From Lichina pygmaea (Eukaryota > Ascomycota > Lichinomycetes > Lichinales > Lichinaceae): a stretch of DNA of 64,000 nucleotides. Shown here piece by piece: positions 2,953-63,530 of the stretch. The translations under genes and the position numbers were made by a program. The notes under the pieces are model-generated. The model was not told the DNA's origin. It saw nothing but the letters and a program-made list of their open reading frames with translations, and did no database searches. The stretch covers positions 2,294,001 to 2,358,000 of the forward strand of contig OY730173.1 of NCBI GenBank assembly GCA_963422465.1, written 5' to 3'. Numbering within the stretch: the first letter of the stretch is position 1; every line of letters begins with the position of its first letter.

Positions 2953-4550
2953 TATCAGCGTTGCCGCTCTTCCCCTTTCTGCGCCGTGTCAAATTTCGGC
3001 TCGGCTAAAAGATAGTCACGCCAAAAGCGCGTTGCATGATAAGGCCTGGCGATCGCACTGACGACGGCACTGAACGTCTCGAACGCATTGTGCACCCAGA
3101 TGGCGTGGGGGAAAAGAAAATCGAGGCTTGGCCAAGATGCAGTCCGATACGGCCCCAGCACTCGGCCTGGTCTGGGAGCGCGACACTTGCGATTCCTGTT
3201 CTTGGGTAGACCTTTGTCGCGCCAAAGACGACGGATCCAGGCAGCCAGGAACCGAGAGGAGCGTTCTGTCTGGCGTGGGTCTCGCCACCAGAGCCTGGAT
3301 TCGAGAGTTGTGGGCCGCAATCGTACGATAAGAGTACGGCATGCAGGCTGAGACGGCCAACTGTATAATCGTGCAGGCGAAAGATGCAGTCAAATCTCGG
3401 TCCGGTTCGTTTATGCCTGCCGCTGCAGATGCTCTCGCAGAAAAGATCACGTCTCGCCCGGATTGAACAGAGACCGGCGCCACTCAGCCAAGGGCGTGTT
3501 TCTCCTGTCGCCGTCAGAGGTCCATGCTCATGCTCTGCTGTGCCTCGTAGACAGATCGTATCCGCTTGGACGTTTATCCCGACAGTATCGTGTGTAGGAG
3601 AGCGGGTCATAGTGCGTCGTATATTCATACGTAAACCTCCGAGAACCTTGCGTTGACGGACAGATCAAAGACACCCGGACGACAGTGGCCCAAGTCAGAA
3701 GTTGAGGACTCGACGGAACCCGCTATTCTATACGGTATCCTCGTAATGTACCTTCGTACGTACGTTCGATCATGACAACTCGCTTGGCTTGAGATCATGA
3801 TTGACACCCGATGAACTTTATGAAATTCGAGTCGAGCAGTCTTACTGTACGGAAGTACTCGTACGTACGGGGCACCCGGTTGAAAAAAAAGCCGGCGGAG
3901 CCAGCACTCTTACTGAGGGCTAGTTTCAAGAATCTTGCGACATCTCCAATGGTATAGACTGTGGTCCACGGACTCGGGACTTTTTACAGCGAAGTCGCTC
4001 GCTTTAGCCGGTTCTATTGTCAACCCAGTGCGAGGGTACGTACGCATCACGAAGACCACTCTTTCTCTTCTTGACGCGGCAAAGAAGATCCATTGCCCTT
4101 TCAGGGCAGTGGCGTGCTGTCCTTGGCGGGGGAGATCAAACGCTAGCCGGAAAAGTGTTTGTCGGTACTCCCGTACTCCGGGGCGTACTGTAACGAATCC
4201 CGCGCGGGACCGACCGAAACCCCAATGAGACAGACAGACACGCAGACAGGCGCGTACAGTACGTATGTACGTGTCTTGAGAGCCGGGCGTGCCGAGGGCA
4301 CCTGACCCTGTCCTGAACAGCGACCTAGGACTAGCACGGTGACCTACTCGTGCTACTGTACGTATGTAGGACTGGGACAGTAGCCTGAGACTGGGAAAGA
4401 AAACAAGAAGAGGGCTGTTGCGCGAGGACATGGTATGCAGCATGCAAGACTGGCGCAGTATGTAGCGGTAGTGTCTAATTATGTCTACCAAGGCGCCTGA
4501 TAGAGACCGCTGACTAACCAGCCATCTGCTGACTGATCCTCCTCCAAATA

Positions 4551-4730
4551 CAGTGGCACGACACAAGTCTGCGTACACCTTCATACAAAATCTACCTCGG
4601 GTTAGTCAGGAGGATCAATGCATCATCACTTGCTGCTGTTGCTGTAACTCTGATTCTGTCGCATTACTTAAGAAGATACGTAGCGGCTGATGGGTTGTAC
4701 GGGTGTACGCAGACTTGTGTCGTGACACCG
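4551..4730. mobile_element. Mimp-like MITE, copy 2 (180 bp, TA target site)
   Basis: The same family as copy 1, in the opposite orientation, about 1.6 kb away. The left end is CAGTGGCACGACACAAG; the right end carries the inverted repeat with a few substitutions. TA dinucleotides lie at 4549-4550 and 4731-4732. Copy 2 has a 4-base insertion in the interior (CGTA beside the TCTTCTTAAG motif) relative to copy 1. No coding capacity. Confidence 0.88.
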
Positions 4731-5428
4731 TACTCCGTAGTCTACTAGGCACCTGCCCGACCACGACCAAATCCAGGAGGTAACACTCGGTATCTACACC
4801 ATCTACCGTAGACATCATAGACACCTCAGATTTGTACTAGAAAAGGGTCAGGGTCATGTCACATGTTGACATGTCAATGCCGCCATATACTACTCCTGTA
4901 CATACGTACAGCAGTGACCCCAAGAATTTTTCCCGTCAAGAAATCCAACCTTGTACATGACATCCTCTGTCTATACTGTGCTGCCTGACTGCCACAGTTT
5001 TACATCATCTTGCATATCATCGAACGCCTTCTTCGGCACCAGCTGACTACACTCAGGTAGTGACCAACTACGTTAGGTACCTGGTCATCTTACCTCATCT
5101 CTGCTTACTATTTATCTCCCCTGAAACAGAGAAGGAAAGACAGAGGGGGATACCGGTAACTGCCAAGGAGGAAGAGAGCAACAAGGAAATAGGATGAACA
5201 AGGTGAGTGGGGGGGTTCTTTTTGGGAGTAGAGATATAAGTGCACAAGATTGCTCCCGGGAAGAGCATTGTAGGATTTGGTAGAGGAAGGAGATGGCGAT
5301 AGTAACTTGTCCTGATACGTAAAATGTAGCCGCTTGCATTACAAGAGATGAAAACTTTACTCGATGGGAAAAAGAGTACGACTAACGGTGCCACGGCAAA
5401 AGAAAAGGGTGCCGTGAAGGTGACGTTG

Positions 5429-20621: not shown

Positions 20622-20824
20622 CTCTGGCTGATGTCGGTGGCCTTTTTGTTTGACAAGCGTGACAGATCTGACAGTTTCTTTATCCTCTCATCTCTATCGT
20701 CCTTTGGCATGTACTTCCCCACTCTGGCTAGTGTCGGTAGCTCTTTTTTTTCTCACAAGTATGGCAGATCTGACAGTCTCTTTCAATTCTCTCATCTCTA
20801 TCGCTGTTTGGCATGTACTTCCCC
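20622..20824. repeat. Two-copy tandem duplication, period 100 bp
   Basis: CTCTGGCTGATGTCGGTGG... at 20622 and CTCTGGCTAGTGTCGGTAG... at 20722 are direct copies. Both contain GACAGATCTGACAGT-like words, CTCTCATCTCTATCG and TTTGGCATGTACTTCCCC in the same order. The copies have diverged by several substitutions and small indels, so the duplication is not recent. Confidence 0.88.
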
Positions 20825-20834
20825 GCTAGAGTTA

Positions 20835-24682: not shown

Positions 24683-27600
24683 ATGACGGGTCGCAAGCGC
24701 GGCCGTCAGGAGCTCGAGGCCGACGGCGCCTCCCACGAACCTTCAATCCTCAATCGTATCAGGAACATGTGGCAGTTTGCCAATCTCATGCAGTTCCTCT
24801 TCACCTTCGGCAAGGCTGTCCGAATAGACGAGAACCTGGCGATCGAGGTATGCACGTCTGTTGCGTCGCTGCCGGGCGGTCCTTTGACTCCCCATAGCTG
24901 AGGCTGACGGGGCTTGCCCCCTGCAGGACCTCGAGACCGAGCTTCGAAAACCTGGCCATTCAGAGAAACTGACCGAGATCGGCCTCGGCCTCCTCAAATT
25001 CATCACCTCACATCGAGGTCTGACGTACGGGCCAGGCTACATTCCGCGTCTCTCTTTCATGGTACGGTGCTTACGGGACTACAGTACGGACATGTTTGAC
25101 GAGCACACGCGACGCCAGTATCAGCAACGCGCGCCAGAGCGCAACCCTTTCGGCGATGACGAGAAAGCAGCAAGGTTCTCCGAACTGGACATCTTCACCA
25201 AGGTGAGCCGCCACCAGGATTGTGTCTACTTGAGATGGAAAATGACAGCGCTACAGATACGCGTTCTCTATCAGCTGGCTCAATGGACCATGGTCCATAG
25301 CGACAGGATCCGTGAGCGGATGGAAGACAAGAAAGATCGGGAGCAAGCCTACTGGGTGAGCATCTGCTCCGCTGTCCTGAGTGGCCGTCTGCTGACCCTG
25401 TTGCAGCGTGTTGACCCTACGGGCTGGGATGCCGATGAGCGAACTTACTTCCTACTCGACGATAATCGACTCTATCGCCGGACTGACCCGGCTCCCCCTC
25501 CTCCCCCCGCTCCGAAACCGAAGAAGAACTCGAAGAAGGCCAAGGCTCTCGCGAGGGCTGAGAAGCGCCGAAAGCTCGCCGGCGGTGACCCTGCTGATGA
25601 GACCAGCATTGCCGACAACGACGGTGCAGGGTCAGAGAGCAAGCTCGTCGATGATGGCTTTGGAGGGTTCAAATGGGAATGCATCGCCATCACGACGGAC
25701 GACTACAAGCGGTTCATGGAGAACATCAAGCGCAGCAAAGATCCGAACGAGCAAAGCCTGTACGAACGCTGTCGCGACGACATTATGCCGGTCGTCGAGA
25801 AGGCCGAGGAAGAGCTGCACCGCAAGATGGCCAAGAGAGAGAAGGAACTGCGAAATCTGGCAAGGTTGGCGACGGCGAAGCGATCCAGCCGCATCGCAGG
25901 CAAGGCCGAGAGAGAACGGGAAGAGGCGGAGGCGGCCGAGGCGGAGCGAAAGCGACACGCGGATCTGGCTGCGGCGAGGAAGGAACAGGAGCGGCTGGCC
26001 AGATTGGAACGGGTACGTGGGATTCCAGCCGGTCAAGCGGGCATGCAGCGTCTGACGTGTGGTTCTAGGAACGCGAGTCGCGCATCATGACGCGCGAGCA
26101 ACGACTCAAGGAGCGCGAGACGCGTCGGACGCTGCAAGAGCAGGAGCTTGCCAGCCTGTCGGAGGACAGCAAGAAGGCGGGCGAGGCGGAGGTACGAATG
26201 TCGGAGAGGCATATCAAGGGAGAGATTGAGAAGCGCAAGAAGCAGCTCGAGGCGCTCGAGCCGAAAGACGAATGGTTCTTTGACTGCTCGGGATGTGGGG
26301 TCTACGGCGAGAATGTGGTTCGTTGCTCTCGTTCCTCTTTCGGCCGGGCGTCGGTTCGGCGGCTTACAGGTCTGTGCAGGACGACGGCACGAGCACGATC
26401 GCGTGCGAGAAATGCGACGTCTGGCAGCATCTCAGCTGCCTCGGCATCAGCGAGACCGCGGCGAAGCAGAGGGACTTCCACTTCATCTGCAGCCTCTGCA
26501 AGCGTCGCGAGGAAGACCGCAAGAAGTCGGCCCGGAACCCGATCAAGCTGAACTTCCGCAAGCTAGGGGCTTCGACGTCGCCGCCGATGGGCCAGGCGGG
26601 CGTCACGGTCAGCGCCAACGGGTCGCCCATCAAGAGGAAGAGCAGCGAGGACCATCACGGTGCGTCGAAGAAGGTCAAGCAGACTGGCAGTGGCACGATG
26701 GGCGGCCAGTCGCGGGCTGTCGGCGGCGCGGCGAGCAGTCTGTCGAGGCCGGCAACGGCCAACGGGGGAGAGGCTCCGTCGTCCCACCCGCCTCTCTACA
26801 CGTGGTCTCATGGATCGTCAAACGGCATTGCTGCGTCGTCGACGCGGAGCTCGGATGTCTCGTTCGTCGCCAACGGCATGACTTCTTCCCATCCGAACGG
26901 GGCTTCCACCGGAGCGGCCGATCCTGCCGGCAATCAGGCGCCAGCCAGCATCGGCCAGTTGAGCAGTCTCGACGCCTCGGGTGGGGGGTCCAGCTCCGCA
27001 ACCTCACCAGGCTTGCAGCTGGCAGCGTCCAACGGCGTCGCCCGCGGTGCGTCTGGCCTGCCACAGTCCACCGAATCTCGACCTGGCTCGCCCACCAAGC
27101 CATCCGGATCTGGCCCGTCTCAGAACAAGGCTTTCATCAAGGACAGCCACGCGATCTTCACGCCGGGGCCCCGCATCGGCAACCCGGCCGTCAACGGCGT
27201 CTTCTCGGGCACGCCGAAGCTGGATCCGTCGCCGGGCGTGCACAAGACTCCTGGATCGCTCGCCCCAGGGGGTTCGAATGGCTGTGCGCATGAATCTTCC
27301 GCCACGATGACGCCGTCGGCTGCGGTCTCGGCGCTTCCTCCGTCGTCGTCGGGAATCTCCCCCACCAAGCGCTCCCCTCGGCCGTCTTCGTCGCCCAAGG
27401 TCGGGCCCATCTCGGCAGGCAAGGGCATGGCCATGGTCTTGCAGGAGGACACGCCGCTGCTCCACGCCGCGCCGATGCTCAGTCCGAGTCCGCAGCAGGT
27501 CGACCTCACGCCGCCGCAGAAGAAGTGGACGGGAGCCGCACCGCCGCCTCCGGCCGAGCTCGGCGTCCAACTCCAGGCGCAGTCTCTTGCGGCGCAGGCT

Positions 27601-27693
27601 CCCATGTCGAAAGCCGATCATCTCCGATCTCCTTCTCCAGCTCCGGCCGTCGTGGGTCCGGCAGGTACGACGAACGGGACGACGCACCATTGA
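24683..27693 (+). CDS. DDT/WHIM and PHD-finger chromatin protein
   Basis: Six exons (24683-24847, 24927-25202, 25257-25355, 25407-26012, 26069-26317, 26380-27693) give 902 residues. Residues ~20-120 resemble a DDT/WHIM1 helix module (FANLMQFLFTFGKAV, LLKFITSHRGLTYGPGYIP), and DPTGWDADERTYFLLDDNRL is the WHIM-type tryptophan box found in RSF1/CECR2-like partners of ISWI remodellers. Residues ~260-450 are a highly charged coiled coil. A PHD finger follows (CSGCG, C.KCDVWQH, C.GI, F.C.LC, with C4HC3 spacing), then a ~400-residue Ser/Pro-rich tail. The second intron (54 nt) is a multiple of three without a stop, so retention would leave the frame open. The C-terminus may instead splice from GTACGA at 27665 to give PLTVI. 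Nuclear chromatin role inferred from domains. Confidence 0.85.
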
Positions 27694-28149: not shown

Positions 28150-28430
28150 TTTTCTTCTTCTTCTTCGCCTTCTTCTCTTGTGCCCTTCTTCTTCTCTCCC
28201 TCTTGTGCTCTTCATTCTCCTTCTCTCGTTCCTTTTTTTTTCTCTCTCCTTCCTCACATGACTCAACTCCAGGTGCACTACATACATGATTCCATCCATC
28301 CATCCATCCATCCATCCCCTTGTGCCCGCTCCATCTGTCTTCATCTGTCTTCATCCATCTTCATCCCTCTCCATCCCCACTCCACTCCCTTCCCTCCACC
28401 CGTCTCCATCCCCGCTCCATCCATCCTCCA
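28150..28430. repeat. Pyrimidine-rich simple repeats, including (CATC)n
   Basis: TTC/CTT-rich DNA passes into a run of CATC tetramers near 28285-28316 and then CCATCTTCATC variants. Frames through it are repeat artefacts. Confidence 0.9.
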
Positions 28431-31400
28431 GCCTCCACGTCCTCAGTGCTCTCATGCCTCGTACACTTCCTCGACCGCCTTTCCCTCCACGGAACCTGCT
28501 ACACGGAAGACGAAATGTCGAACCTGAAATACAGAACAAGAAATCCAGGACATGAGACCGAGGTGAGAGAATACATTCACAGCCAAAGTAAGATCACGCT
28601 GATCGATTGGAACGACCGAGCGGTAAGTAGATGATGTACCGTGCATGTCAGTAGAGCTACCGTGAGAGCCAGCTGGAGCAGCTGCTCTCGTGAGAGAGCC
28701 ACCGTCGCGAGAGCTACCGTGAGAAGTATCACGATCTAGAGATGGACAGCTAGACAGGGAGCTAGAGCCACTGTCTTTCCGAAAGCTACTCTTGTTGGAA
28801 CTTTTACCGCAAGAGCTACGTGGAGCTACTACCGGGCCAGCCCACTGCCAACAGGGCACTTGTCATCACCTTTTTCTTCTTGCCCGGTTTCTTGTTGTGG
28901 GACTGCACGTCTCTTTCTTTTGTACGGAGCTACGGTACAATACTTTACGGTACAGTGACTAGATTGATGGTCGAGATCAATCACTATTCAATCCCACGCT
29001 TGACCATCTCCCGCCCTCCGTGCCCTCCCTTTGCCCCAGGCTCTTCACTGCCCTCCAGGCTCTTCACGGCCCTTGCAGTACTGTACATACGTCATGTTCT
29101 AGACCCACCGATTGACGCGGCACGGGGGAGAGGGAGGGAGAGAGAGAGATTCGTGTACAGCTGTTGATGTTCACGATGATCAACCTCGCCGTATGCTTTT
29201 GTTTGATGTGGGGTACGGTACGGTACGTAACAGACGGTACGGTACGGTACGGTGCGGTACGGGAGAGCTTGGGATGGACGGCAGATCATGACGGACGTGA
29301 TGATGCTCCGCAGGTCGAAATCTTGGCGGAGAGTACATACTACATACGTACAGTACATGCGTACGTACGAGGGTGCGTAGACGGCAGTGGAGATGCCTAG
29401 AGCCAGAGCCAGAGCTAGGCGTTGCCAAGGCTGGACGGTGTGGCCGTCGAGATGAACAAAGTGCCGTCGATGGAGAGAGAGTATGTGTCTTCCCACGTTG
29501 CCGCAAGCGGCTCGAGACCGGCTAGGATAAGTCACGGGATCAAGAACAAGGCAGCACGTGCCCTTCTTCCCTCTTGAGGCTCAGGCGGCTTGGAAATCAA
29601 ATTGTCCGATAGGTACGTACATACGTACGTACGACAGATGTATGGAGGTACAGACGGACAGACGGACAGACGTACGAGGAGTCGACGCCGACGAAATAGG
29701 TTCGGCCTACGTAGCCAAGCTGAAACCGGCACGACGCAGCCGGCGACGCTACCGTGCCGGCGCGAAGAGGAAAGAGGAAAAAAAACGGTGGGGTAACTCC
29801 CGGACAGTACATGCGCAGCGCCAGCCCTGGCTCGGGCTCTGGCTCTGATCGGAGCCGAGATATCCGGTTGAGTGGGGCTTGGCTGTACTTGGTTCTGCTT
29901 GGCTCTGCTCGAGGCTGTGTGTCGGCGATGCATCCGGTCCCGTTCCGTCCTCGGCGTCTCGTTGTGTATGTATTCGGTGCTGCGGTGTTTGGTGGTAGGT
30001 ATGCAAGGTTGAGCTGTCAAGGTTCGAGGGGAAAGAGGCCGGAATAGGAAAGTGAGAGAGAGGGGGAGGGCGCGCCGACTGGCAGCTGTCGCTGACAGAT
30101 CACGGCCCTGCCTTGGCGGCTCAAACGTCACTCCGCCGAAGGGATGATGACGCTGCTTGCCAGCAGAGCCAACGACGGCTTGAACGCGCGATCGCCCTCG
30201 ACGATACTCGACCAGACAGTAGCTCGAGCACTAGCCCTCCGCGCCCCCTCGTACACAGGTAACGTGCGTACAAACGATACGTAGCCCTCAGTAGCTCGTA
30301 TCGAGGCGCAGGGACCCTGCCGTCGCCGCTGCAGCCCTGCTGATCGACGTTCGCGTAGGTTGAGAAGATCGCCAATCGTCCAGATGCGCCGAACCGAGCC
30401 AAGTACGAAGCGATCAGGTTACGGTGGCAACGGCCTGCCTCGTACGTACAGCACAGTACGTATGTACGCTGGCGCATGCAAGGGTCGTTCTCCCGGGGGG
30501 TGGGGGGGGGGGTGTTGTCGTCTGATGCAGAGGCCGGGCACCGGGCGATATTTGGCCGGCCAACGCTTGGCTGGAAGGGACCTGGAATGAAACAAGAACA
30601 AGAGGTTGCGCCGGGAGAAGAAAACAATGACGCAAGTGGGGCTGCTTTTGTCATGGGTAATCATGTTTGGAAAGGTTGACCGGAAAGGGAAATTGTAGAA
30701 CATCAATCTGTCGACGACGGATGGGGCTGGAAGTGGATGACCGATGACATGTCTGTATCTGTGCTGCATAAACAGGAGTGTAGCGGTAGTCGTCACTAGT
30801 AGAGGGCACAGTAGTGTCTGAGGTCTTCACCCCCTCTCCCCATCTCAATCTTAGAGTACTGTAACTTACTTCCGTACAGAGTAGATGTCTAGCAAGAGCA
30901 CTTACAATCCTGCCAGTTGAAGTTGTTGCTTTCATGACACTCCACCCTGTTTGTTCCACCTACTCACTAAAGTACAATCAATCATCCGTCCCCTCCGACG
31001 GTCCATCAGTCCATCCATCCATCTGTCTATCTGTCTATCAGCACCACTACCACTCAACCACAAGATCTTAAACAGTCACCAAAACCTCCCTACATCAACC
31101 TCGACATCTCAGAATGTTGATGTCAGACAGAGAAAGTCACAGCTTGTCAGTCTAGGCAGCTCACCCTTTGCTGTTTGGCAGATCATCATGTGGTGTCTGT
31201 TATCATCAGATCTCCCAAGATCTACAAGCTCGTTCATTCAAGATGTTGATAGGTTCTTGTCTCTCTTTTTCTTCCCCCACCACTGTCATCTTCCTTCGTC
31301 ACTTTCGTAAGTCGACCATCATCAGGCATGAGATCTCCCCCCCCTCCATCTTTTTTTCTTTTCCTCCTCTCCAGTCTCACCCACCGCCACGATTGTAACG

Positions 31401-32010: not shown

Positions 32011-32518
32011 GTAGGTTTACATCCCATCGCCGTTCATCCTCGCGTTCACCCGCCTCATCCTCCCAGCCCCGCCGCCGCCACATTCCCACTCATCCCCCCT
32101 TCTTCCCCCCAAGGCCGCCGCCAATCGCGTCGTGTCACCAAGGTTCTCCATTCTGCATTCCCATTTCCCATTTCCGTTTCCCATTCCCCATTCTACCTTT
32201 CCCATTCTGCCTTCTCGCATTCCCCATTCTATTTTGCTGCATCCTTCTTCCTCCCCTTCCTCCCCCTTTTCCCCCCTTCCCGTGCGTTGGAAGAAGAAGA
32301 CGAAGAACAAGATGGGGTTCTTTTCATGCGGGGCGTACCACCGGTGTGGTTACTTTCGTTCCGCGCTACACACTGTACTGTCGCGCCGCGCTATACCCGT
32401 ACGTACAGTATCATACTGTACTGTACCTGTACACACGCTGGGGGTGAGGCGACACGAAAAGAGAAGGGGCAGGGATGGGAGGGGGAGGGGGGGGGGGGAG
32501 GGAAGGACATCTTCTCTC
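32011..32518. other. Pyrimidine-rich non-coding DNA
   Basis: Repeated CCCATTC/CCATTTCC words (32150-32230), then C- and T-rich sequence, and a G-rich tract near 32476-32500. No gene seen. Confidence 0.5.
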
Positions 32519-33053
32519 GAGGTGTAGGAGGCCTGGACAGAGGATATACTTGTAGTTGTCCAACAGACATAGCTGCATACTGCTGTTGCCTTGTCTTGTC
32601 CCATGACACCAGCACACTGCTTCTGAAGCTGATACTAGTGTTTCTGCTGCTGTCACTGATGATGATGATGTTGATGATGATGTTGATACTGTCCTGCCCC
32701 TCTTCTATCTCTCTCCCATTCCTCTTTCATCCTCCCCACCTTCCCTCCATCTCATCTTCAAACTCTTTCTTCTCTTCTCTTCCCTCTCCCTCTCTCTCTA
32801 TCTCCATCCTCCAGTCTTGACCAGTTTTTTAAGATCTTGCCTGATCAAGATCTATCCAGAATGTACATCACAGAGTTTGAGCTTCAATTTTCAAATATCA
32901 TGACACCACCAAAAATTTGGTGGCTGCACTACATCTAAAAAAATCTTTGTACTGAATTATGTATGCACACACAGGCAGCACAGTATGTACATCTCTCTTT
33001 TCTCACTTTTATCCTCACTTCTTTATCTCAGGCAAGGTTATTGTGAACTGGCA

Positions 33054-33319
33054 ACCGGCCGGGGAATGAGTGTCTTGATTGATCTCTCTCCCTTCTAAAA
33101 TCTAGAAGCGACGACCAAGGAGAAAACTCTGCACACCGTCACGTGCAGACAAACAATTTAGCCGTCACTCAGGGGGAGGCTGATCTCTGAACCCCTGCAA
33201 ATCCTCGGGCTATCGACTCCCTGTCGAGTCCCTAGTTGACACCAATATACAGTGAGAGTTCTCTTCTCTCACGTGAGCTTGGCTCTAGCAGCAAGCAAGG
33301 ACTAGTCTTCTCACTCCCG
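33054..33319. other. CpG-normal island inside the CpG-depleted block
   Basis: About 270 bp with roughly a dozen CpGs (for example GCGACGACC, CGTCACGTG, CTCGGGCTATCGACTC) lie between two stretches with none. It could be a later insertion or a regulatory stretch that escaped mutation. No terminal repeats were confirmed by eye. Confidence 0.55.
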
Positions 33320-35295
33320 CAGCTGACAGTTATCCAGACAAGAAAGAATAGCTTCTCCACAGGCACAAGCAACATAAGCTTCAGACCCAGTGCAAGTTGT
33401 TAGGTATAGTGGTGAGTGGAAATAACCTGGAGCTTCTTGACTGTGTCCACCACCAAGAAGAAAAACTGAAAGCTGACCAAACAAAGTCAGATGAAGAAAG
33501 TGCAGAAGACAGACCTGTGGAAGCAATTCTCTAGTCTTGTTGATGTGCTAGACATGCTTCCTGATAACACCACTGTTTGTTGTCAAAACAAGCTACTCTG
33601 AGAGACTGAGAACACCACTCTGGATTACAACTATAAGCCTCTCTGATAGTGAAACTCCAGCAGTGAGTCTGGACCCACTAGAAAAACTTGATGGAGTATT
33701 AGCCAAGCTAAGTATTATAAAATCCACACTTGAACAGACTAAGAAAAAAGCCAGCTTACTGAGTATGTCAAGCAAAAAATATTCCAAGATTTAAGACTAA
33801 TTTCTCTCTGTGTACCACTATAACATAGCAGGCAATACAACAGTGAAAGACTAGATCACTATCACTGAAAGCAACATCACTACCTACTTTGGTGATCCTC
33901 TTGCGGACAGCAAGCTTTTCTGAAATAAACACTATACAGACAACACTTCTTTCATTAACTTATACAGACTACACTAGAGCAGTCTCTATCTACAGTTAGT
34001 TTTTTTCTTTACCACTTCTTGCAGAATAAGTAGTATAACAAAAGGCTAATTTGTTGATATCTGCAGAGGATAACACAGTGTTATTACATGTCCTAAGTGT
34101 CTATACCACAGCAAAGACTGAAGAGAGCAGGTGTGTCAGTTGTAGAGCCAGAGATCCAGCTTGTGTTCTGGAAGCTGATCAACACTCTCAAAGATGGCAA
34201 GTACTGTCCAGACTTTATGGACAACAAAAACTCAGCAGAGAAAAGATTCTATTAGAAGTTCTGGAACACTTGGGGAAGATCACAAAAAGTGGAGAGAAAG
34301 TATGTATACTTGCTGTTTGTGACCAGAAGGAAGATCTAACTCAAGTGGCAGACAAGACTGATAGAACAATACACAAACTCTGCTAGACACTATGCAGTCA
34401 GCCAGACAACTTCAACATAGGTGGTTCCCCACATCAACACATGTTCTTGAGCAACAGACCAGCTCTACTCACACAACTCTTCTGGCCACATCTCTGTCCC
34501 TGTCTCCAGTGCCTGCAATACTTCTGGCTCTGCTTGAACTCTGTCACTAGTCTCTGTTATACTTCTGGCTACATCTCTGGTTGATATTCTTGGCTCTACC
34601 TCTGACTCTACTCTCAGTACCTGTGATGTTTCTAATCTGACAATATCTGGACCTGCTGCTGTTCTGCCAGACCTAGACTGTAGCTATAACTACAAACATG
34701 ACAATGACTCTGAACCTCTTGTTATAGAGATAGTGAGGAACATTGTAAATGCTAGAGACAGAACCAGAGATAGTACTGAAGGCAGAGCTGGGACTGAAAT
34801 AGTGCAGTGGCTGAAGATCTCACAAGATACATCTCTGGTGGGAGATATTCCCTGATAGAGGTTAGAAAGATTTCAGGACCTGTAGAAAGCAGTGTTTAGT
34901 ATTTTGCTACAGTACAGTGTCAGTACAATTATTGTCTGTTCCAAGTTGAAATGTCCCAGATGCTACACAACTCTAAGCTTTGTGGTGCTACCCTATACTG
35001 GTACTCTGTTTTTATTTTTTTATTTTATTCTTACTCTGATTTGGCTGGTGAGCCATGCAGAACTTCTAGATACATGTTTGTTTTCTCAGAAAACCTTTGA
35101 AGGAATAAAAACTGAGACTTGGGTAAGACTAGGGAATTATCTGAGAGAATATGCAGTGTCTGAAGAAAATAAAATCACAGAGATGATGGGTTTTCTGGTA
35201 AGAGTTGGTGTGCTAAGTTAAACTGGTCTAGTCACTGGTACTCTGTACCAGTATGGTTCAGTTGGACAGTCACATTCAAGGATATACATATACCT

Positions 35296-35510
35296 TAGTA
35301 TGTGTGTATGTGGGTGTAGAGAAGGAAGGTTGTGTGTGTATATATATGTGTGTGTAGGCCTGTTGTGTGTCTATGTATGTGGGCATGTATATAGGCATGT
35401 ATGTAGGTGTGTTGTGAGTATGTAGTGTAGGCATCTTCAAGGGAGTCCAAGAGGAGGGAGGGGGGGGACTGGGGTTGTATGTACATGTGTATGTATGTAT
35501 GTGTGTAAGG
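35296..35510. repeat. TG/TATG-rich microsatellite
   Basis: Degenerate GTGTATG, TATATATG and ATGTATG units, with a short G-run in the middle. It closes the CpG-depleted block on the right. Confidence 0.85.
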
Positions 35511-35512
35511 TT

Positions 35513-38077
35513 CGATGGAACCAGTCGAAGCCGAAGCTTCTACCTTAGTACTTCCGTACCTCCCAAAACTCCCTAGCATTGCATCACCTGGTGTGGTGCA
35601 CACTGTGCAACCACATCTCTGACGCGGGCGCGCCCTCGCGCGGTCGCGGGCGAGGGTGCGGGCGCGACCATCTATCTACTGTATCGGACGCTGTCGTGTA
35701 TCTACAGTACGGACAGTACAGTAGTTGCAGTACGTACGTGTATCTGTGTGGTATGTCTGTGTGCATTAGTGTGTACGGTATATGTGGAAAGGGTATCTGT
35801 GTTCGAAAGCCCTCCCGTGACGGGAGCGGCGCTGTCGTGTTTTTTCCCCGTTTACACTCTCATCGGGCTTTGGTATGTATGTATGTATCATGGCGTGTGT
35901 GCGCGTGTATAAATGTCCACACGACTGTATGCACATGTGTATCTGCGTACTCGTATGTCTGTGTAGACGGGTCAACACACGCCTGCGCCGCCGCCATCAT
36001 AGATTGGCCCGTTCCAATTCCCCAAGGCCGCCAAGACCGACCAGCTATCGTGACGACCGTCCACGAGACCGAGTCGCGGTCGCGGCCGTCGAGCGTTGGA
36101 AATACTTGTACCCCGCCTGGTCCTGCGTTTGTCCCCCTTCCGCGATCGCGGCTGCTCCGGACTGCTGGGACGAAGAGCCTTTCTTCCGACGCGGCGCCTC
36201 GGCCTGCGAGAGAGCGCAAGAAGGTCGTGCTGCTGGGAACAAGAGATTCCCTAGGGGCTCGCCGCAAGGAACTGGGAGCCCCCCCTTCCCTCGTGGCCTG
36301 GGAAAAGCGAGATCCGGGCGGCGCTGCCGTTTCCGGCGACGGCCATTCGGTGCGCTGAGATGAATGCGCCCTCCATTAGCCCTAGCCCCGATCTGTGAAG
36401 AAGCACTCTAGGCGGCTCTCAAGCGAAGGGAGGAAGCGCAGAACAGAGTGCCGTAGAAAGATGGAGAGAGAGTGTGAGGAGAGGAGACGAGAGAGCTCGG
36501 GGAGTCCGTCCGTTTGGTGATTCCGGCCGCGACGGCAGCGGGAGACGGTGGTGGTAGAGGCTGGTGCCTTCGCATCGCGCGCGCGCGCCATCTCTCTCCG
36601 ATCTTGAAAGCTGCTTCGTTTCCGTCATGATCCATGTGTCCCGTCTCGGACACCGTCTCCGACCCCGTCCGCGACGGCCGTTTTCGAGCTCGATTACGCT
36701 TCCCAGGCCGCCATGCGCCATCGGCCCCAACCCCGACTCCGTTCCGGATCTGATCGCTGAACACACCTCGGCGCGCGCTCCGTCGACGGCTTCCCTGCTC
36801 CGGCTTCCCCAACTCCGGCGAATCTGCAGCTTCATAAGAGTAGATCCGAGCCTCCCCGGCTCCCAATGCCCACCCCCCCCCCCCCCCCCCCCCCCCCCAA
36901 TCTCTCAAGGGCTTTTTTTGCACTTTCTTCGACAAAGGGAAGGTTTCCGTCGACCGGGAAAAACACCCCACGCCCTCTCCGATATACTACTCGTCCTTGC
37001 GTGAGCGCGTGCATGTGTGGATGCGAACGCGAGCGCGAACGCACCCGGAATACCAATCTGATCTGATCGGGCACGGCGGCCACGAGACAAAGAAAAAAGT
37101 GGTGAGACATCGTCGGTAGCGGAAGTGCGGTGATCGAAACAGCAAATCTGCGGTCCATCGCCGCACGTCTCGGCGGTTGCTCCTAGACGCTCTTGGTCGC
37201 TCCTGGTTGCTTCCCTGAGTCCCCGTCACGGGTAGAGACTTTCTCGATCCGACACAGATGAACCACTTGCGGGTAGCGCACCCACGAGAAGTTCGTCCCA
37301 AACCCGCTCTCTGAAAATCTTCGTCGCCCTTCAAAGGGGGAAACCTCAAACCCAGCAGTCTCCTGTCACGTCGCCAAAGAGAGAGACACAGGGAGGACGA
37401 GAGGGAGAGAGGGAGAGCGAGAACGGAGGAAGGAAGAGAGTAAGAAGAACTGGGACGACTGCCTGAGAGGCTCGGATGCAGACACTTTGGACGAACGTCA
37501 AACCCAGCACATCGGACAGGTCCAGCGGGATCTTCTAGAAGCCTGTCAGTGTCTTTCAAGGTCAACTTGCCTCCAGGGCCTGCCCTCGTCAAACGCTTGC
37601 TCGCTCGCTCGCACGTTGTCCGCCAGAAGCGTCCACGGCAGAGCTACGAATTCTTCTCACGGCTTCTGCGACACGCATCCGACCGCGTCGTACCATCCTT
37701 GCGCTCTTCCAGGAAAGCCACCAAGCCCGGGTAGTCATGTCCTGTTGAACTAGCACCGACCGCCTCGCTTATAGCTGGGGAGCAGCCCCCTCCCCCTCCC
37801 CTCCCCTCCCAACATCCGCCGTTCACCGCGTCTTCATCGTGCCGTCACCTCTTTCGGATCCACTGGCTGGTCACTCGATATCGCAAGACACTCTTGCGGC
37901 CGGAAGAGCTGGCGACAGCCTGTCGAGGTCACCTCCTGCTTCCACCTCCCTCCCACCGTTCAGAAGCCTTGAGGCGTCACCGTTTGGGGCTCTTTCCCGA
38001 GACCGCGTGGAAAGTGCAACAGGTGCCCAGGGGGCTAACAGTCCTTTCGATTCCGGCGGTAGACATTAGCAGCGGCG
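35513..38077. other. Gene-free interval before the HMG-box gene
   Basis: CpG returns abruptly here (GCGGGCGCGCCCTCGCGCGG at 35622-35641). Frames at 35579-36358 and 36408-37592 are repeat- or composition-driven and show no domain. Pyrimidine-rich DNA at 37770-37815 may belong to the leader of the HMG-box gene. Confidence 0.5.
36873..36898. repeat. Poly-C tract, 26 bases
   Basis: An uninterrupted run of C, one of three homopolymer C/G runs above 20 bases in the window. Confidence 0.95.
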
Positions 38078-40062
38078 ATGGCAGACGCCGAGCCACAGCA
38101 ACACGTCGGCAAAGACGCTGCCATCCCGTATGGCCTGCGCTATATGGTTCAACATACCACTGATCTCCCTTACCGAGATGATTTCCCGCCCGCGGAGGAG
38201 AGGAAAGACGCCGCCCTGACGCCTCAGGATCAGCAGAGCCCTTATGACGCCACACCGTCCCACTGGCAAGGAAACATGCCGGCGGCGGCAGTCGACGAGC
38301 TCGATCGGCACCTCGACGGAGGACCAAGCTATGATGCGCTGCAGGGCCACGACGCGCAGGTGAGCGTCCTCGTTCGGTGCTCTAGGGTCGCGCGCGGATT
38401 CCTCAAAGCTCACCGGGGGGAACCGGTGATGTAGTACGCCTACCCAGAACCGAACGAGCGGGTCGGGCTCGGGATCCAATATGTCAGTATGATCGTGTCC
38501 CTTTGTGAAGAGGTCTGGGAAGCTCACCCATGACGGAGACCGTACCCTACCAGCAGGGCGAATGCTACGGCAGCCAGGGCCATCGAGAGTACGGCCTGGC
38601 TCACTCTCATGCGACCGAGCAGGATGTAAGCCGCACGAGCATCGTTCTTCGGAGCCATGTCGCTGATCCATCGTCGCAGCGCATCCTCGCTTCGTTGCCG
38701 GCTCAGTCACCATCCTCGACGGTCGAGACGGCAGATCAGAGCGCCACGACGAGAACGACGCGCAGCGGACGCGTCGTCGGTCGAGTCGAGACACGAGTCG
38801 CCGCGGCCGCCGCGGCCGCGGCCGCCGCCTCCTCTCACGACAGGTCAAAGGTGACCAAGTCGCCACAGACGAAGAAGAACTCGCGGCTGTCGAAGAAGGA
38901 GAAGCCAAAGACGCCGCAGCTGACAGCTCCGCTGAGCGAGCTGACAAAGGCCTTCAAGGCCATTCCGATCAGGGACATGGAAGCCTGGGTCAACCGGCCG
39001 GCCGAGGTCCGGTGGAAGGAGGTCGAGAAGCGCAACGGCTACATCGCCCGGCCCATGAACTCGTTCATGCTCTACCGCTCCGCCTTCGCCGAGCGGACGA
39101 AGCAGTGGTGCACCCAGAACAACCACCAGGTCGTCTCGTCCGTGAGTGGCGAGAGCTGGCCGATGGAGTCGGCCGAGGTCCGGAACAGGTACAACGAGTA
39201 CGCCCGCATCGAGCGCGAGAATCACCAGCACGCGCACCCGGGGTACAAGTTCTCGCCGAGCAAGCCCAACAACGCCAGCAAGAAACGAAAGCCGGCCAAC
39301 GCCGAGGTCGAGGCGAGCGAGACGAGCGAGCTGGACGGCCTCGAGTACGACTGGCACGACGCGGACGGCGTCTTCCACGCCGCCAACGGGTCCAGACGGC
39401 CGGCCAGAGCCGGACCGGCCACGGACGGAGATGCCTTGGCCGTCGATCCTCGTCCTCGGCCGTTCCCGTCCGGCGTCGGTGCCCACCAGTCGTCGTACGA
39501 GGCCACGAACCCCGGGAAGCCGGCCCCGAGCGTCATGGAGCCGCACGACCTGTACGGCTACTACTATCAGACGGAGGTGTATCCCAACGTCGACGCTCCC
39601 TTCATCGAGGACGTCCGCATGCAGAAGACCGAGGTGCCCGAGCCAAGCCTCGGCGAATACCACGGCCTCGTCGGTCTTCCCGGCGCCGGCCACCACGACC
39701 TCTACCGGCAAGGTGATTTGGCCGTGGTACCAGACGACGAGCACCTGGTCGACCCCATGTTGTTGACGTCGATGAACGGGCTCGGGCCCGCCTCGGCGTC
39801 GGCGCACGCCGGCCACCATCACGATCTCGCCTTGCACGGCCTGCCGCCGGACTACGCCGACGAAGCAGGCTTCGGACCGACCATCGAGGAACTGCGGGCC
39901 TCGTACCCACACGGTCTGGGTCCCGGCGGCTACGGCGACGTCCCCCACGCCCCGGAACTGCAGGCAAACGCCCATGGCACCTCGGGCCTCCACGATCAAT
40001 GGTCCGCCGGGTTCGACATGGGGACAGAATTCGAGAAGTGGTACAACAACGACGAAAGATGA
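38078..40062 (+). CDS. HMG-box transcription factor (MATA_HMG type)
   Basis: A nuclear DNA-binding protein. Four exons (38078-38359, 38435-38482, 38554-38625, 38680-40062) join in phase to 594 residues. The HMG box (~255-325) reads RPMNSFMLYRSAFAERTKQW, CTQNNHQVVSSVSGESW and HPGYKFSPSK, the form found in non-mating-type HMG regulators of Pezizomycotina rather than the RPPNAF form of MAT1-2-1. It is preceded by an A9 run and a Lys-rich segment (KKNSRLSKKEKPK), and followed by KKRKP and a His/Pro/Asp-rich tail with no known domain. The third intron (54 nt, GTAAGC...CAG) is in frame without a stop, so unspliced RNA would still encode protein. A 465-codon antisense frame over the body is a shadow caused by codon bias. 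Targets are unknown. Confidence 0.87.
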
Positions 40063-48038: not shown

Positions 48039-48958
48039 GAGTACAACCGAACAAGCTACCGTACAGTACCGTAGGACTCGGGAGTGATGCTCTCTTCACT
48101 TTTTCAACCAACCTTTCCCATCTCTCTCTTTTTTTTTTTTCTCCTCTCCCCCATTCCTTCTCAAGCTTCTCACCTCCTCCTCTTTCCAAGACCAAAAAAG
48201 CTCTTATCCGTCCACGAGAACCCAAACCCCTACCTACCTTCTTTTTCTTCTTTTCCTTCTTCTTTTCTTCTTTTCCTTGGAGGTTCTGTTTCTTGGAGAC
48301 TGAAGAACATAAGTAGATATTGTATCCTTGTATAAAAATGCTTACTCGGGTTGATTGAAGTAACTGAAAGTCGAGTCGGTGAAAGTATTTTGAAGATACA
48401 CATCTGAACTTGTTGTTGTCGTTATTCTTGTCGTCGTTGTTCTTGTCGTCGTCGTTGTCATTGTTGTGTGAGGCTAAGTAACCTAACTTGGCATGACTTG
48501 ATAGTGATACTTACCACCCCTCTTCTCCTCCTTCTTCTTCTTCTCCTTCTTCTCTTTCTTCTTCTTCTTCTTCTCTACCTCCTCCTCCTCCTCCTCTCTG
48601 CCAGAATCCTGTGAGCCCAGAGTTCTATGGGTTTTAGAGTCTCGTGGGTCCAGAGCCACAGTCCGTCCCATGTCCTTGCACCTGCTCATGACCGGTCTTG
48701 TCAAGATCTGGGGGTGTCTTTCGCAGCATTTGAACGTATAGGGGGGGGGGGGGGGGGGGGGAACCTGTTCTCGGGAGGTCAGTTGGGCATGTTACATGTG
48801 TCATCTTTTTTTTTTCCAAAGAAAAAAGTACAACGGATGGAAGAAGGATGATGGGGGTTTGAACCCGCTGCACTCTCTCCCGTGTGCGCTGTTAAAAAAA
48901 AGGAATTCTTCTCATCGCTGTATGCATTAGACTACGGTACTTGGCCATCGGACTACTA
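48039..48958. other. Convergent 3' region with simple repeats
   Basis: Pyrimidine-rich DNA (48115-48290), GTTGTC/GTCGTC repeats (48410-48470), a CTT/CTC tract (48520-48600) and a 21-base poly-G run at 48741-48761. It separates the 3' ends of two convergent genes; no gene seen. Confidence 0.6.
48741..48761. repeat. Poly-G tract, 21 bases
   Basis: An uninterrupted run of G between convergent genes. Confidence 0.95.
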
Positions 48959-53139: not shown

Positions 53140-55205
53140 GCCGATGGAGACAAGTCGTGCTCACACGACCGGCAACGACGCTCCTCAAAGACCAGCGTCA
53201 AAGACGATAGGCGGTGATGCTGACGAGGATCGAAGAAGAGCAGGTCGAGTCGAAGCTGTCACGCGATCGATCCGGACAACGAGAGGACAACGGCCAACGA
53301 CGGGTGGACTGACAACCAACGGCCACCACCCGGACGCAGACACCCAAACAAAGGATGCAGTAGAAAAGATCGAGAGGAAGACTCTCGAACGCAAGGAACG
53401 AAGTAGAAGTAGGGTAAGAGGGATGAGTTGCAAGTGGGTCGAGAGAAGCTCGAGAGGACGAGAGAAGAGCTGGGGAAGAAAGGGAAGGAGGAGCGGAAGA
53501 AGACGGAAAGGCCAAAGGAGAAGAGCCGGGTCGAGACGTGGGAAGAGCCGTGGAGCAAGGGGAGCCGAGGGTAGCCTTCGAGCGCGGGACCAACAGCTTG
53601 CCGTGCGATGCAGCCTAACGAGTACTTTCTTGTAGGGTGCGACAGGACCAGCGTCAAGGGCGACGACGCCTGATCTCGAGCTGTCTGAGCTCCGTGACCT
53701 AGCGAGCCCAAGTACAGTACGTAACGTACTCGTGATAGAAACAACCAGCGTTGTAAATTGATTACGTGACAAATCAAGACCGTTTTTGCCGTTTCTGGCC
53801 CGCTGTCTCTCGGCTTCATCTCCCACCGAAACCACAGCTGCAACCCTGAATTCAACGGGCGTACGTAACGTACGTAACGTACGTACCGGGGGGGGCGCTA
53901 CATGTGTTTTTTTTTTCCTTCGGCTAGGCGTGCTAGGATGATGGAAGGGAGTTTCCGCGCCTCGGTTCTTTTCCCTTTTTTCTGTCTCGGAAGATAAGTC
54001 GCGATCCCGACACCGGCAAGGGGACCGAGATCGTCGATCGCAAGAGAATCGATGGACGTCAAAAGTCCCCGTGGCCGACAGCGCCAGGGGGGTCCCCGCA
54101 GAAGTGCCAGTGGCACGAGTCGGTAAAGGGGCCGCGTGACTCTGGAACATCACGTTGTTCCGGACCGACAGGAAAGAAGCCGGAGCGTGACCTCGGCTGC
54201 GGCTCCCCATGATAGTCCCGACGGGTGGCCCAAGCGCACTTACAGTACGGAGGTACTTACGTACGTACATTGGAGTCCCTGATGACTAAGTCGATTGCTG
54301 AGCCGAAGGTGGTGGTGGCTCCACTGGTAATTTCAACACAAGTCTATCTACGCACCTACATTGGTCGCAATGGCAATGTGTGATGTGACATGGTCAACGC
54401 TTCTCTTTGATGCGGTCCTGCAGTCGCATTATTGACGACTAGATGGACCCACCCTACGGTTGATCTTGTATGGGGCCGTACACAGACTTGTGTCGTGCGA
54501 CTGTACGCGTGTGAAAGGCTGTTGTGAGATGGACCTCGGTCTTGTAATTAGTATCAAGTATTTTCAGAGAAGCATTCGAAACAACACAGTAGCAGCCACG
54601 ATCGGATCAGCCGGCTTGACATTGCAACAGTAGTGAAAGTGGTTCGTATTGCGGTGAGCTACTACGTAGTTGATCCAGCAACCCGAGCAGCACCTCCCCC
54701 CCCTGTATCTTGCCGTCATCACGAGCCCCGATCCTACCACTTGCAGTATCCCACGACAGCTGAGCCCCCTGCTGGTTTGAAGACATGTACGAGGAAGCAA
54801 ATGGATCTTTGGACTTTCCCTCCCGAGAACGACGACGATGACGACAAGGACGGCCTGCTCCTCTCCCGGATGTTGTCGTCTTCCGCTTCATCTCTCCCTT
54901 CCCCCCCCCGCCCGGCCCTCTTCCGGCCGGGTACAAATGTACAAGAGCGAACGTTAGATGCGTTGTTCGACCTGACCGATTCGGTTCGGGTGCATAAACG
55001 GCTACGGGTAGGAATCCCCGGAATGGTGGTGAATGTCAAACGAAGGCGAAACAGCGCTGGAGAAACGCTGGCAGGGAACAGAAAGAGACTCGTCAGGAGA
55101 GAATTCAGAAGAAGAGGGAAACAGAAGCGACGGTTAGATGAGGGCGGCGCCATGTGCGTATAGTATGTAGGTGGATTCGAGGGGTCCGGAGAGTGGAACC
55201 GGCCC
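53140..55205. other. Intergenic with mimp-like copy 3
   Basis: The promoter of the PH-domain gene is purine-rich on the plus strand (53360-53560, AGA/GAAG). TACGTAACG words occur near 53850-53885 and TACGTACGTAC near 54255. A third TIR element lies at 54330-54503. The last ~350 bases are likely the KIN1 3' UTR. Frames at 54633-55163 lie inside that flank and have no domain. Confidence 0.5.
54330..54503. mobile_element. Mimp-like MITE, copy 3 (174 bp, diverged)
   Basis: The right end CACAGACTTGTGTCGTGCGACTG is followed by TA (54504-54505) and matches the inverted repeat of copies 1 and 2. The left end is decayed (TTCAACACAAGTCTATCTAC) but starts right after TA at 54328-54329. The length agrees with the other copies and the interior shares GATCTTGTATGG-like words. 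An older copy of the same family. Confidence 0.7.
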
Positions 55206-62289: not shown

Positions 62290-62555
62290 TTCAGTCCTGG
62301 CGACCCGGCGGATACCCGCTGTGTCGTTGGCGTCCCTAATCTGCACAATGAAGATGTTGAGCTCTCTTGGTGCAGGTTGTTGGGTTGGTTCCTGGCCGGG
62401 GCTTGCGCCCGGGATGCCGGCGTTCTCCCGGCGGGCTGCGGCCGCGTAGGACCCTGGGTTCTTTTCCATCTTCTTCTCAGTCCTGAGGACTACATCTAGG
62501 ATTCGCTGGAGGGTTGGGGTTGGGGCCGGGGTTGCGGCGGCTTCCCTGTCACTCT

Positions 62556-62586
<31 letters not shown>

Positions 62587-62711
62587 GTGCTGGACATGAA
62601 CCAGTCCAGTATGTCGACCAGGGTCTTCACACAAACTTCTCCTAGTCTAGGGATATCCCTTGCTTGTCTGCATCTAGTTGTGCTACTGGTGCAAGGCTTG
62701 CGCCTTGCCAA
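62290..62711 (-). mobile_element. LINE fragment, ORF1 N-terminal part
   Basis: The minus strand encodes ILDVVLRTEKKMEKNPGSYA, AAARRE, and RELNIFIVQIRDANDTAGIR: a helical start, a SYAAAA-type linker and the beginning of the beta-rich region seen in ORF1 (Gag-like) proteins of fungal non-LTR retrotransposons. It is cut within about 15 bases of the GPATCH1 stop. A 29-base G run lies inside, giving a poly-Pro stretch. It keeps 5' sequence rather than the 3' end usually left by LINE insertion, so a rearrangement is likely. Confidence 0.5.
62556..62584. repeat. Poly-G tract, 29 bases
   Basis: The longest homopolymer in the window, inside the LINE-like fragment. Confidence 0.95.
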
Positions 62712-63530
62712 TGTTCATGGGTCGGAGTGGTAGCATCTTTTCTGTGGAGAAGTTATAGTGGGTTGAAGACAATTTAATCAATGTGGAAAAAAACATTGAT
62801 TGATTGATTGATTGAATTCCTACACTATTCATCAGCAAAAACAGAATTTACATCTGTGGCATAGGGTGCCCAGGATGCCCGGGACGCCAAAGTAAAAAAA
62901 CGCTGTTATTTACGCCATCGGGTGCCATCAAAAACATCAGATGAAGTCAGTTCCATACTAAGGAAAGTTAGTCACCAGCCGCCATACTAAAAAGGCTAGC
63001 TGCCGGCTGCCATCAGGTGATAGCTGGCATCTCGACACTTGCTAGTAGCAAGAAGATGGCATCAGATGTAGTGAAGATAGCATCTGACGATAACCTGCAT
63101 CTTGATGCTCCCTAGCAGTGAGAGGATGGCACCAGATGTGGCAAAGGCAGCACCGGAGGTAATAGTGATTCCTAGTAAGGAGTTAGGTAATCAACAGCAA
63201 AAAGATTCTATTTCGCAAGGTCTCGACAGGATTTGAATTGAGGCGATACACTATTGAGTTTACAAAGATTCTTGCGAAGGATAAGGTGAATATTGGACAG
63301 ATGACTCAATTGATTCATTTAGTAATGGCTATTGATTGATTGATTGATTGAAGTCTTCCGCCGTTCTAAAACTAGCTGACTAGATTATGCCGGGAGTAGC
63401 AATAGTAATTTGAAAGGATAAAACCGTCTTCGGGGCGAAAACCCTTCCTTCTCCTCTATTCCGGGATCTCTTACCGTGGATGTTGTGCTTGCGTGTACGT
63501 GTGTTGTAGATCTTGTAGTTGCTGACGCGA
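62712..63530. other. Repeat debris with two (ATTG)n tails
   Basis: Two short (ATTG)4-5 runs (62795-62815 and 63331-63351) resemble short-tandem 3' tails of LINEs read on the plus strand. Between them are recurring words such as GATGGCA(C/T)CAGATGT and AGCATC(T/A)GA with no coding frame. Confidence 0.45.

Follow-up and report, generated by a model that had tools for sequence, protein, structure and literature searches.

A block nearly devoid of CpG, carrying a CpG-bearing LTR-like insert, in 64 kb of probably fungal DNA

One block of the window (the whole stretch of DNA that was analysed, 64 kb) is strongly depleted in CpG relative to the rest of it. The loss is near total and sharply limited, it is accompanied by a shortage of CpC/GpG, and it is interrupted by an LTR-like insert that bears CpGs. 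On balance, and with moderate confidence, the block is taken to be the relic of a repeat that a MIP-like or RIP-like process methylated at CpG and that then mutated almost to saturation, an LTR element having arrived later. The locus is thus most likely a case of an already described kind of fungal repeat decay.

CpG counts and limits of the block

The two segments that the sequence-only reading had called almost free of CpG are so: 32519-33053 has none in 535 bases, and 33320-35512 has a single one, at 33904, in 2193 bases (observed/expected ratio, o/e, 0.01). Its description of the surroundings as dense in CpG is likewise borne out, the o/e being 0.91 in the left and 1.11 in the right 5-kb flank and 1.03 in the whole window. 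The o/e of 0.01 in 33320-35512 lies far from both flank values. The gap between the two segments, 33054-33319, holds 12 CpGs (o/e 0.68). The old parts of the block, defined as 32519-33041 plus 33334-35512 (2702 bases), carry one CpG where 112.5 are expected (21.9 + 90.6); the Poisson probability of one or none is ~10^-47, and 1000 shuffles of their bases gave a mean of 115 CpGs and a minimum of 85. Ranked by length, the first three CpG-free runs in the window (1609, 586 and 538 bases) all lie within the block, the fourth being 190 bases long. Outside the block every 2193-base stretch has at least 110 CpGs and every 535-base stretch at least 8, and with the block and its margins excluded, o/e in 400-base windows falls no lower than 0.25, at 30801. 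The features of the block are listed in Table 1.

Table 1. Features of the CpG-depleted block, with observed and expected dinucleotide counts
Feature	Start	End	Strand	CpG, observed vs expected	TG+CA, observed vs expected	Remarks
Left part of CpG-free relic	32519	33041	.	0 vs 21.9	89 vs 60.1	
GTTAT, first target-site duplication copy	33037	33041				within left relic part
Probable solo LTR (287 bp)	33042	33328	.	12 vs 19.1	39 vs 36.0 (no clear excess)	TG...CA ends, GTTAT on each side
GTTAT, second target-site duplication copy	33329	33333	.			
Right part of CpG-free relic	33334	35250	.	1 (33904) vs 78.9	306 vs 231.3	no recognised coding content
TG-rich low-complexity tail	35251	35512	.	0 vs 7.1		CpG-free; relic membership uncertain

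The last CpG to the left of the block is at 32518 and the next to its right at 35513, and a two-state model assigns 32532-33055 plus 33230-35484 to the block. A CT tract at 32691-32818, with 3 G in 128 bases and 1.4 CpG expected, adds little information. The tail is TG-rich (20 C, 93 G and 90 T in 262 bases). Because it could carry only ~7 CpGs, the right edge is uncertain by ~260 bases; the old part is thus taken to begin at about 32519-32550 and to end somewhere from 35250 to 35512. The sharp edges noted earlier are borne out for the CpG loss, with this uncertainty on the right.

The two-state model also marks four other, short segments, 28168-28400, 30794-31294, 48090-48345 and 48459-48641, which are weaker and mostly G-poor. 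The largest, 30794-31294, has 6 CpGs where 23.8 are expected and 85 TG+CA where 60.6 are expected; it lies ~1.2 kb to the left of the block and is possibly a partly decayed relic. The segment 48459-48641 (183 bases), which a CT-rich stretch adjoins, has no CpG against 8.1 expected and no excess of TG/CA (17 vs 18.4). A further stretch, 62450-62880, has 7 CpGs against 27.0 expected and includes a long G run.

Dinucleotide composition and the kind of mutation

In the block as a whole CpA stands at 1.28, TpG at 1.46, CpT at 1.53, ApG at 1.34 and TpA at 0.81. The earlier remark that CpA and TpG remain abundant is thus correct overall, but CpT and ApG are raised too, and CpA shows no rise in 34501-35250 (37 vs 38.3 expected). 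The absence of classic Neurospora RIP, also claimed, agrees with the RIP indices. The substrate ratio, (CpA+TpG)/(ApC+GpT), is 1.20 in the block and 1.06 elsewhere in the window, so that CpA and TpG are undepleted, and the composite RIP index (the product ratio less the substrate ratio, following PMC4165359) is negative, at -0.12. The raised TpA/ApT (1.08 in the block, 0.64 elsewhere in the window) would, taken alone, fit RIP; CpA-type RIP, which should reduce the substrate ratio, was rejected on that ratio.

Removal of CpG alone lifts the share of every other CpN, and the CpG cell was therefore treated as a structural zero. With CpG set aside in this way, the block has CA/TG 1.11, CT/AG 1.18 and CC/GG 0.57, and the means of 113 2-kb control windows are 1.04, 1.10 and 0.90, respectively. 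The CC/GG value is lower than that of all 113 2-kb and all 295 600-bp control windows, these controls being richer in GC than the block, with no 2-kb window below 50% GC; the 27 600-bp windows below 50% GC range from 0.64 to 1.09. The shortage runs through the right part, with values of 0.52-0.65 in the three pieces of 33334-35250; for the piece 34501-35250 (0.65), 1 of the 295 600-bp windows is lower.

Deamination at CpG only was simulated on two kinds of ancestor. On 37 host stretches it gave CC 0.78, CA 1.28, CT 0.93 and a GC content of 48.9%; on random host-like ancestors (150 at each of three GC levels) it gave CC 0.77, CA 1.22-1.24 and CT 0.93. In each set of 150 runs the CA value of the block was reached by at most one run, and its CT and CC values by none. 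The GC content of the block is 40-41% and that of the window 56.7%. Besides an unmutated control, ten settings in which CpG, CpC, CpA and CpT were converted in host DNA were also simulated, and none fits all the dinucleotides together; ApT, for example, is 0.74 in the block core vs 1.00 to 1.11 in the simulated mixtures. The most enriched trinucleotide in 32519-33041 plus 33334-35250 is CTG/CAG, at 2.38 times the base-composition expectation. The excess of TG+CA, ~126, is close to the ~112 CpGs lost, but this mass balance is no proof of a change from CpG to TpG/CpA because, CpG aside, CT/AG is as raised as CA/TG. The misfit of the simulations and the low CC/GG therefore indicate that CpC was also targeted, or that the ancestor had a different composition, or both. 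The loss of CpG is nearly complete, but a purely CpG-specific deamination, as first proposed, is more than the CC/GG shortage and the simulations establish.

The LTR-like island and the older sequence around it

The gap 33054-33319 does not belong to the mutated unit and resembles a younger LTR insertion. The island to which it belongs starts TGTGAACTGG and ends GCAGCTGACA, and an exact 5-bp repeat, GTTAT, flanks both ends. Insertion of an LTR element typically leaves TG...CA ends and a 5-bp duplication. At the island borders, 33042-33328 is the sole TG...CA pair with a duplication of 4-6 bp, and 18 of 2000 random placements with a search area of equal size gave a 5-bp duplication with TG...CA. 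As no internal region is present, the island is read as a probable solo LTR. The 64-kb window holds no further copy of 33042-33328, so the LTR label is a structural one; one 21-base pattern from the island was absent from the viral contigs. With its CpGs kept, the island would be younger than the CpG loss that surrounds it.

The old block is flanked by two ORFs, one with a PHD finger (26293-27693) and one with an HMG box (38530-40062); ORF lists cover the 11 kb that separate them. The Pfam matches in the window fit a fungal host, which we take to be, probably, a filamentous ascomycete. For the right part, five ORFs and six read-through frames gave no Pfam match above the cut-offs, the hits obtained (E 0.045 to 0.29) falling far short of them. 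Two queries against PDB sequences found no relative (best E 0.89), three peptides gave no confirmed related locus in viral contigs, the right core found no relative among plasmids, and searches of the whole window with Rfam (gathering scores) and for tRNAs gave no match. The window contains neither an LTR pair for the old element nor a second copy of it, and no target-site duplication (TSD) or terminal inverted repeat (TIR) better than those of random pairs. The best candidate, the 8-bp GGATATAC at 32542-32549 and 35280-35287 (9 bp in another register, AGGATATAC), scored 15 and was rejected; 3 of 20 random region pairs scored 15 or 16.

Thus, the old relic shows no protein domain (sought in the right part), no TIR or LTR pair and no TSD by which it could be assigned to the transposable elements. 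Hallmarks of this kind are commonly missing from old fragments, and their absence makes a transposable element less likely without removing it from consideration. Because neither family, relative, terminal repeat nor TSD was found, it is by inference that the old block is regarded as the relic of a repeat or transposon. The earlier description of an insertion mutated as a unit has none of these marks behind it, nor a second copy in the window.

The protein-like stretches said to survive in the block do not clearly exceed what chance would give. In 33334-35300 all six frames contain at least 15 TAA/TAG each, plus TGA stops. No open run in 33334-35250 is longer than 115 codons, a length that 26 of 500 Markov copies attain when all stops are counted; when TAA/TAG only are counted, the open runs of this part are reached by 53 of 500. 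A hidden gene in 33334-35250 was rejected on these counts. Seven stretches of the old block were tested for 3-base periodicity: 0 of 200 Markov copies match that of 34387-34855, and 4 to 137 of 200 match that of the remaining six; two gene ORFs scored far higher. The segment 34387-34855 also contains degenerate internal repeats.

Explanations, known fungal systems and other repeats

The favoured explanation would begin with the insertion of an old repeat, probably a fragment of a transposable element, into the genome of a probable filamentous ascomycete. The repeat would have been recognised and then CpG-methylated by a Dnmt1-type enzyme in a MIP-like or RIP-like manner, with methylation restricted to the element. 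Methylated C would have changed to T on both strands until CpG was almost exhausted, with CpC partly affected. Insertion of an LTR retrotransposon at 33042 would have followed, and recombination would have reduced it to a solo LTR, presumably left unmutated. In this sequence of events methylation is the presumed cause, and the C-to-T direction, the order of the steps and the kind of host are likewise presumed. Several observations support the favoured explanation: i) one CpG is left of ~112, a loss unmatched elsewhere in the window; ii) CpA and TpG are both raised across the whole block; iii) CpG stops sharply at 32518 and restarts at 35513; and iv) the island has CpGs and no excess of TG/CA. 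The sharp limits and the intact central insertion argue against a process that spreads continually over the locus. Other observations count against the favoured explanation. The window has no second copy in which repetitiveness or C-to-T polarity could be seen, and no TSD, TIR or transposon protein was found. The CpG-only simulations misfit (CA 1.11 vs 1.22-1.24; CT 1.18 vs 0.93), the GC content of 40-41% is below the 48.9% given by CpG loss alone, and CpA is flat in 34501-35250.

A rapid burst of RIP in the sexual cycle, preferring CpG (and CpC) over CpA, could have destroyed the element within a few generations, which we regard as unlikely. The completeness of the CpG loss and its sharp edges would follow from such a burst; repeat-induced mutation at CpG and CpC, as described for Coccidioides in a review (PMC9409882), provides a parallel; and a length threshold would predict that short repeats, such as the 287-bp LTR-like island and the ~186-bp MITE-like pair described below, retain their CpGs. 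However, a change at CpG only converts CGA to TGA and never produces TAA or TAG, of which every frame of 33334-35300 has at least 15, and no protein family is recognised; together these point to other, long decay or to DNA that never was coding. The abundance of TAA/TAG is better fitted by long decay or non-coding DNA than by a single burst. It is unlikely that the DNA was already poor in CpG before its arrival, whether because the donor genome was heavily methylated or as an element with dinucleotide habits of its own. CT/AG, AC/GT, TA, AT and CC do differ from those of simulated CpG-stripped host DNA, as such an origin would have it, but the plasmids, viral contigs and PDB sequences searched contained no donor (best E 0.89). 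A vertebrate-like depletion, with the typical CpG o/e of ~0.2, was rejected as too weak, since ~22 CpGs would be expected in the block and the probability of none or one is 4e-9. An assembly artefact or contaminant read-in is hardly credible, as the sequence is unbroken across both sides of the block and the block holds an insertion that is flanked by a target-site duplication.

Precedent for CpG-biased repeat decay in fungi such as Coccidioides, to which the first reading had appealed, is on record in three sources (PMC9409882, PMC4165359, PMC4352252). The review describes the repeats of Coccidioides as mutated by a repeat-induced process, above all at CpG and CpC (PMC9409882), and those of Uncinocarpus are given as highest for CG-to-TG (PMC4165359). 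By these accounts the Onygenales resemble the block in losing CpG from the repeats of filamentous ascomycetes and, in Coccidioides, CpC as well. The block differs from them in the GC content of its window, 56.7%; that of Coccidioides is lower.

CpG signatures in copies of transposable elements were reported for Tuber, together with a CpA signature, and for Microbotryum (Amselem et al. 2015, PMC4352252), and in three basidiomycetes were tied to Masc2-class enzymes (PMC4352252). Tuber melanosporum and Microbotryum share with the block a C-to-T loss deduced at CpG, presumed mobile DNA and undepleted CpA. Unlike them, the block is one locus without aligned copies, is near saturation and is short of CpC/GpG, and the CpA signature is Tuber's. 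Methylation of Tuber transposable elements is described as biased towards CpG, with limits that largely coincide with those of the repeats (PMC4165359); the account of mutation in the same source gives no significant enrichment of either mutation, CG-to-TG included, for Tuber repeats, which counts against Tuber as a precedent. The MIP (methylation induced premeiotically) of Ascobolus immersus (PMC4165359, PMC13297926) would fit the block in its symmetric CpG preference, its repeat-coextensive limits and its minimum size (PMC13297926), but MIP itself acts without mutation. Neurospora RIP (CpA to TpA), for which a length threshold of 400 bp is given (PMC3017866), likewise leaves bounded regions of shifted, AT-richer composition; the block differs in its undepleted CpA/TpG and negative composite index. 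In Rhizoctonia, CpG-biased changes are reported in genes and repeats alike (PMC4014442), and in Sporothrix, RIP-like patterns are described though an RID homologue is seemingly absent (PMC4226871).

By itself the locus adds one case to a known pattern. It offers a clean, near-saturated loss of CpG with a probable internal time marker, and the CpG-retaining insertion suggests that the process did not go on spreading across the locus. Other copies in the same genome could show whether the loss came in a burst or by slow decay of methyl-cytosine, and whether CpG was targeted alone or together with CpC. A more far-reaching proposal, which we consider quite improbable, is that a host process mutates C completely before G and partially before C, spares CpA and CpT, is confined to its target, and was already finished, or was blind to short sequences, when the LTR inserted. 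If so, the locus would offer a dated cross-section of a defence system that resembles neither CpA RIP nor plain methyl-CpG decay.

The window contains other short repeats. A MITE-like pair at 2774-2955 and, inverted, 4548-4733 is ~186 bp long and 93% alike, with inverted ends of ~31-37 bp; a third match, at 54445-54505 (61 bp, 80%), is a partial relic. The pair keeps most of its CpGs, and 3 of its 9 mismatches are CpG/CpA transitions (alignment read by eye); this retention is compatible with a length threshold, without demonstrating one. A tandem duplication of ~100 bp, 83% identical, lies at 20622-20827.
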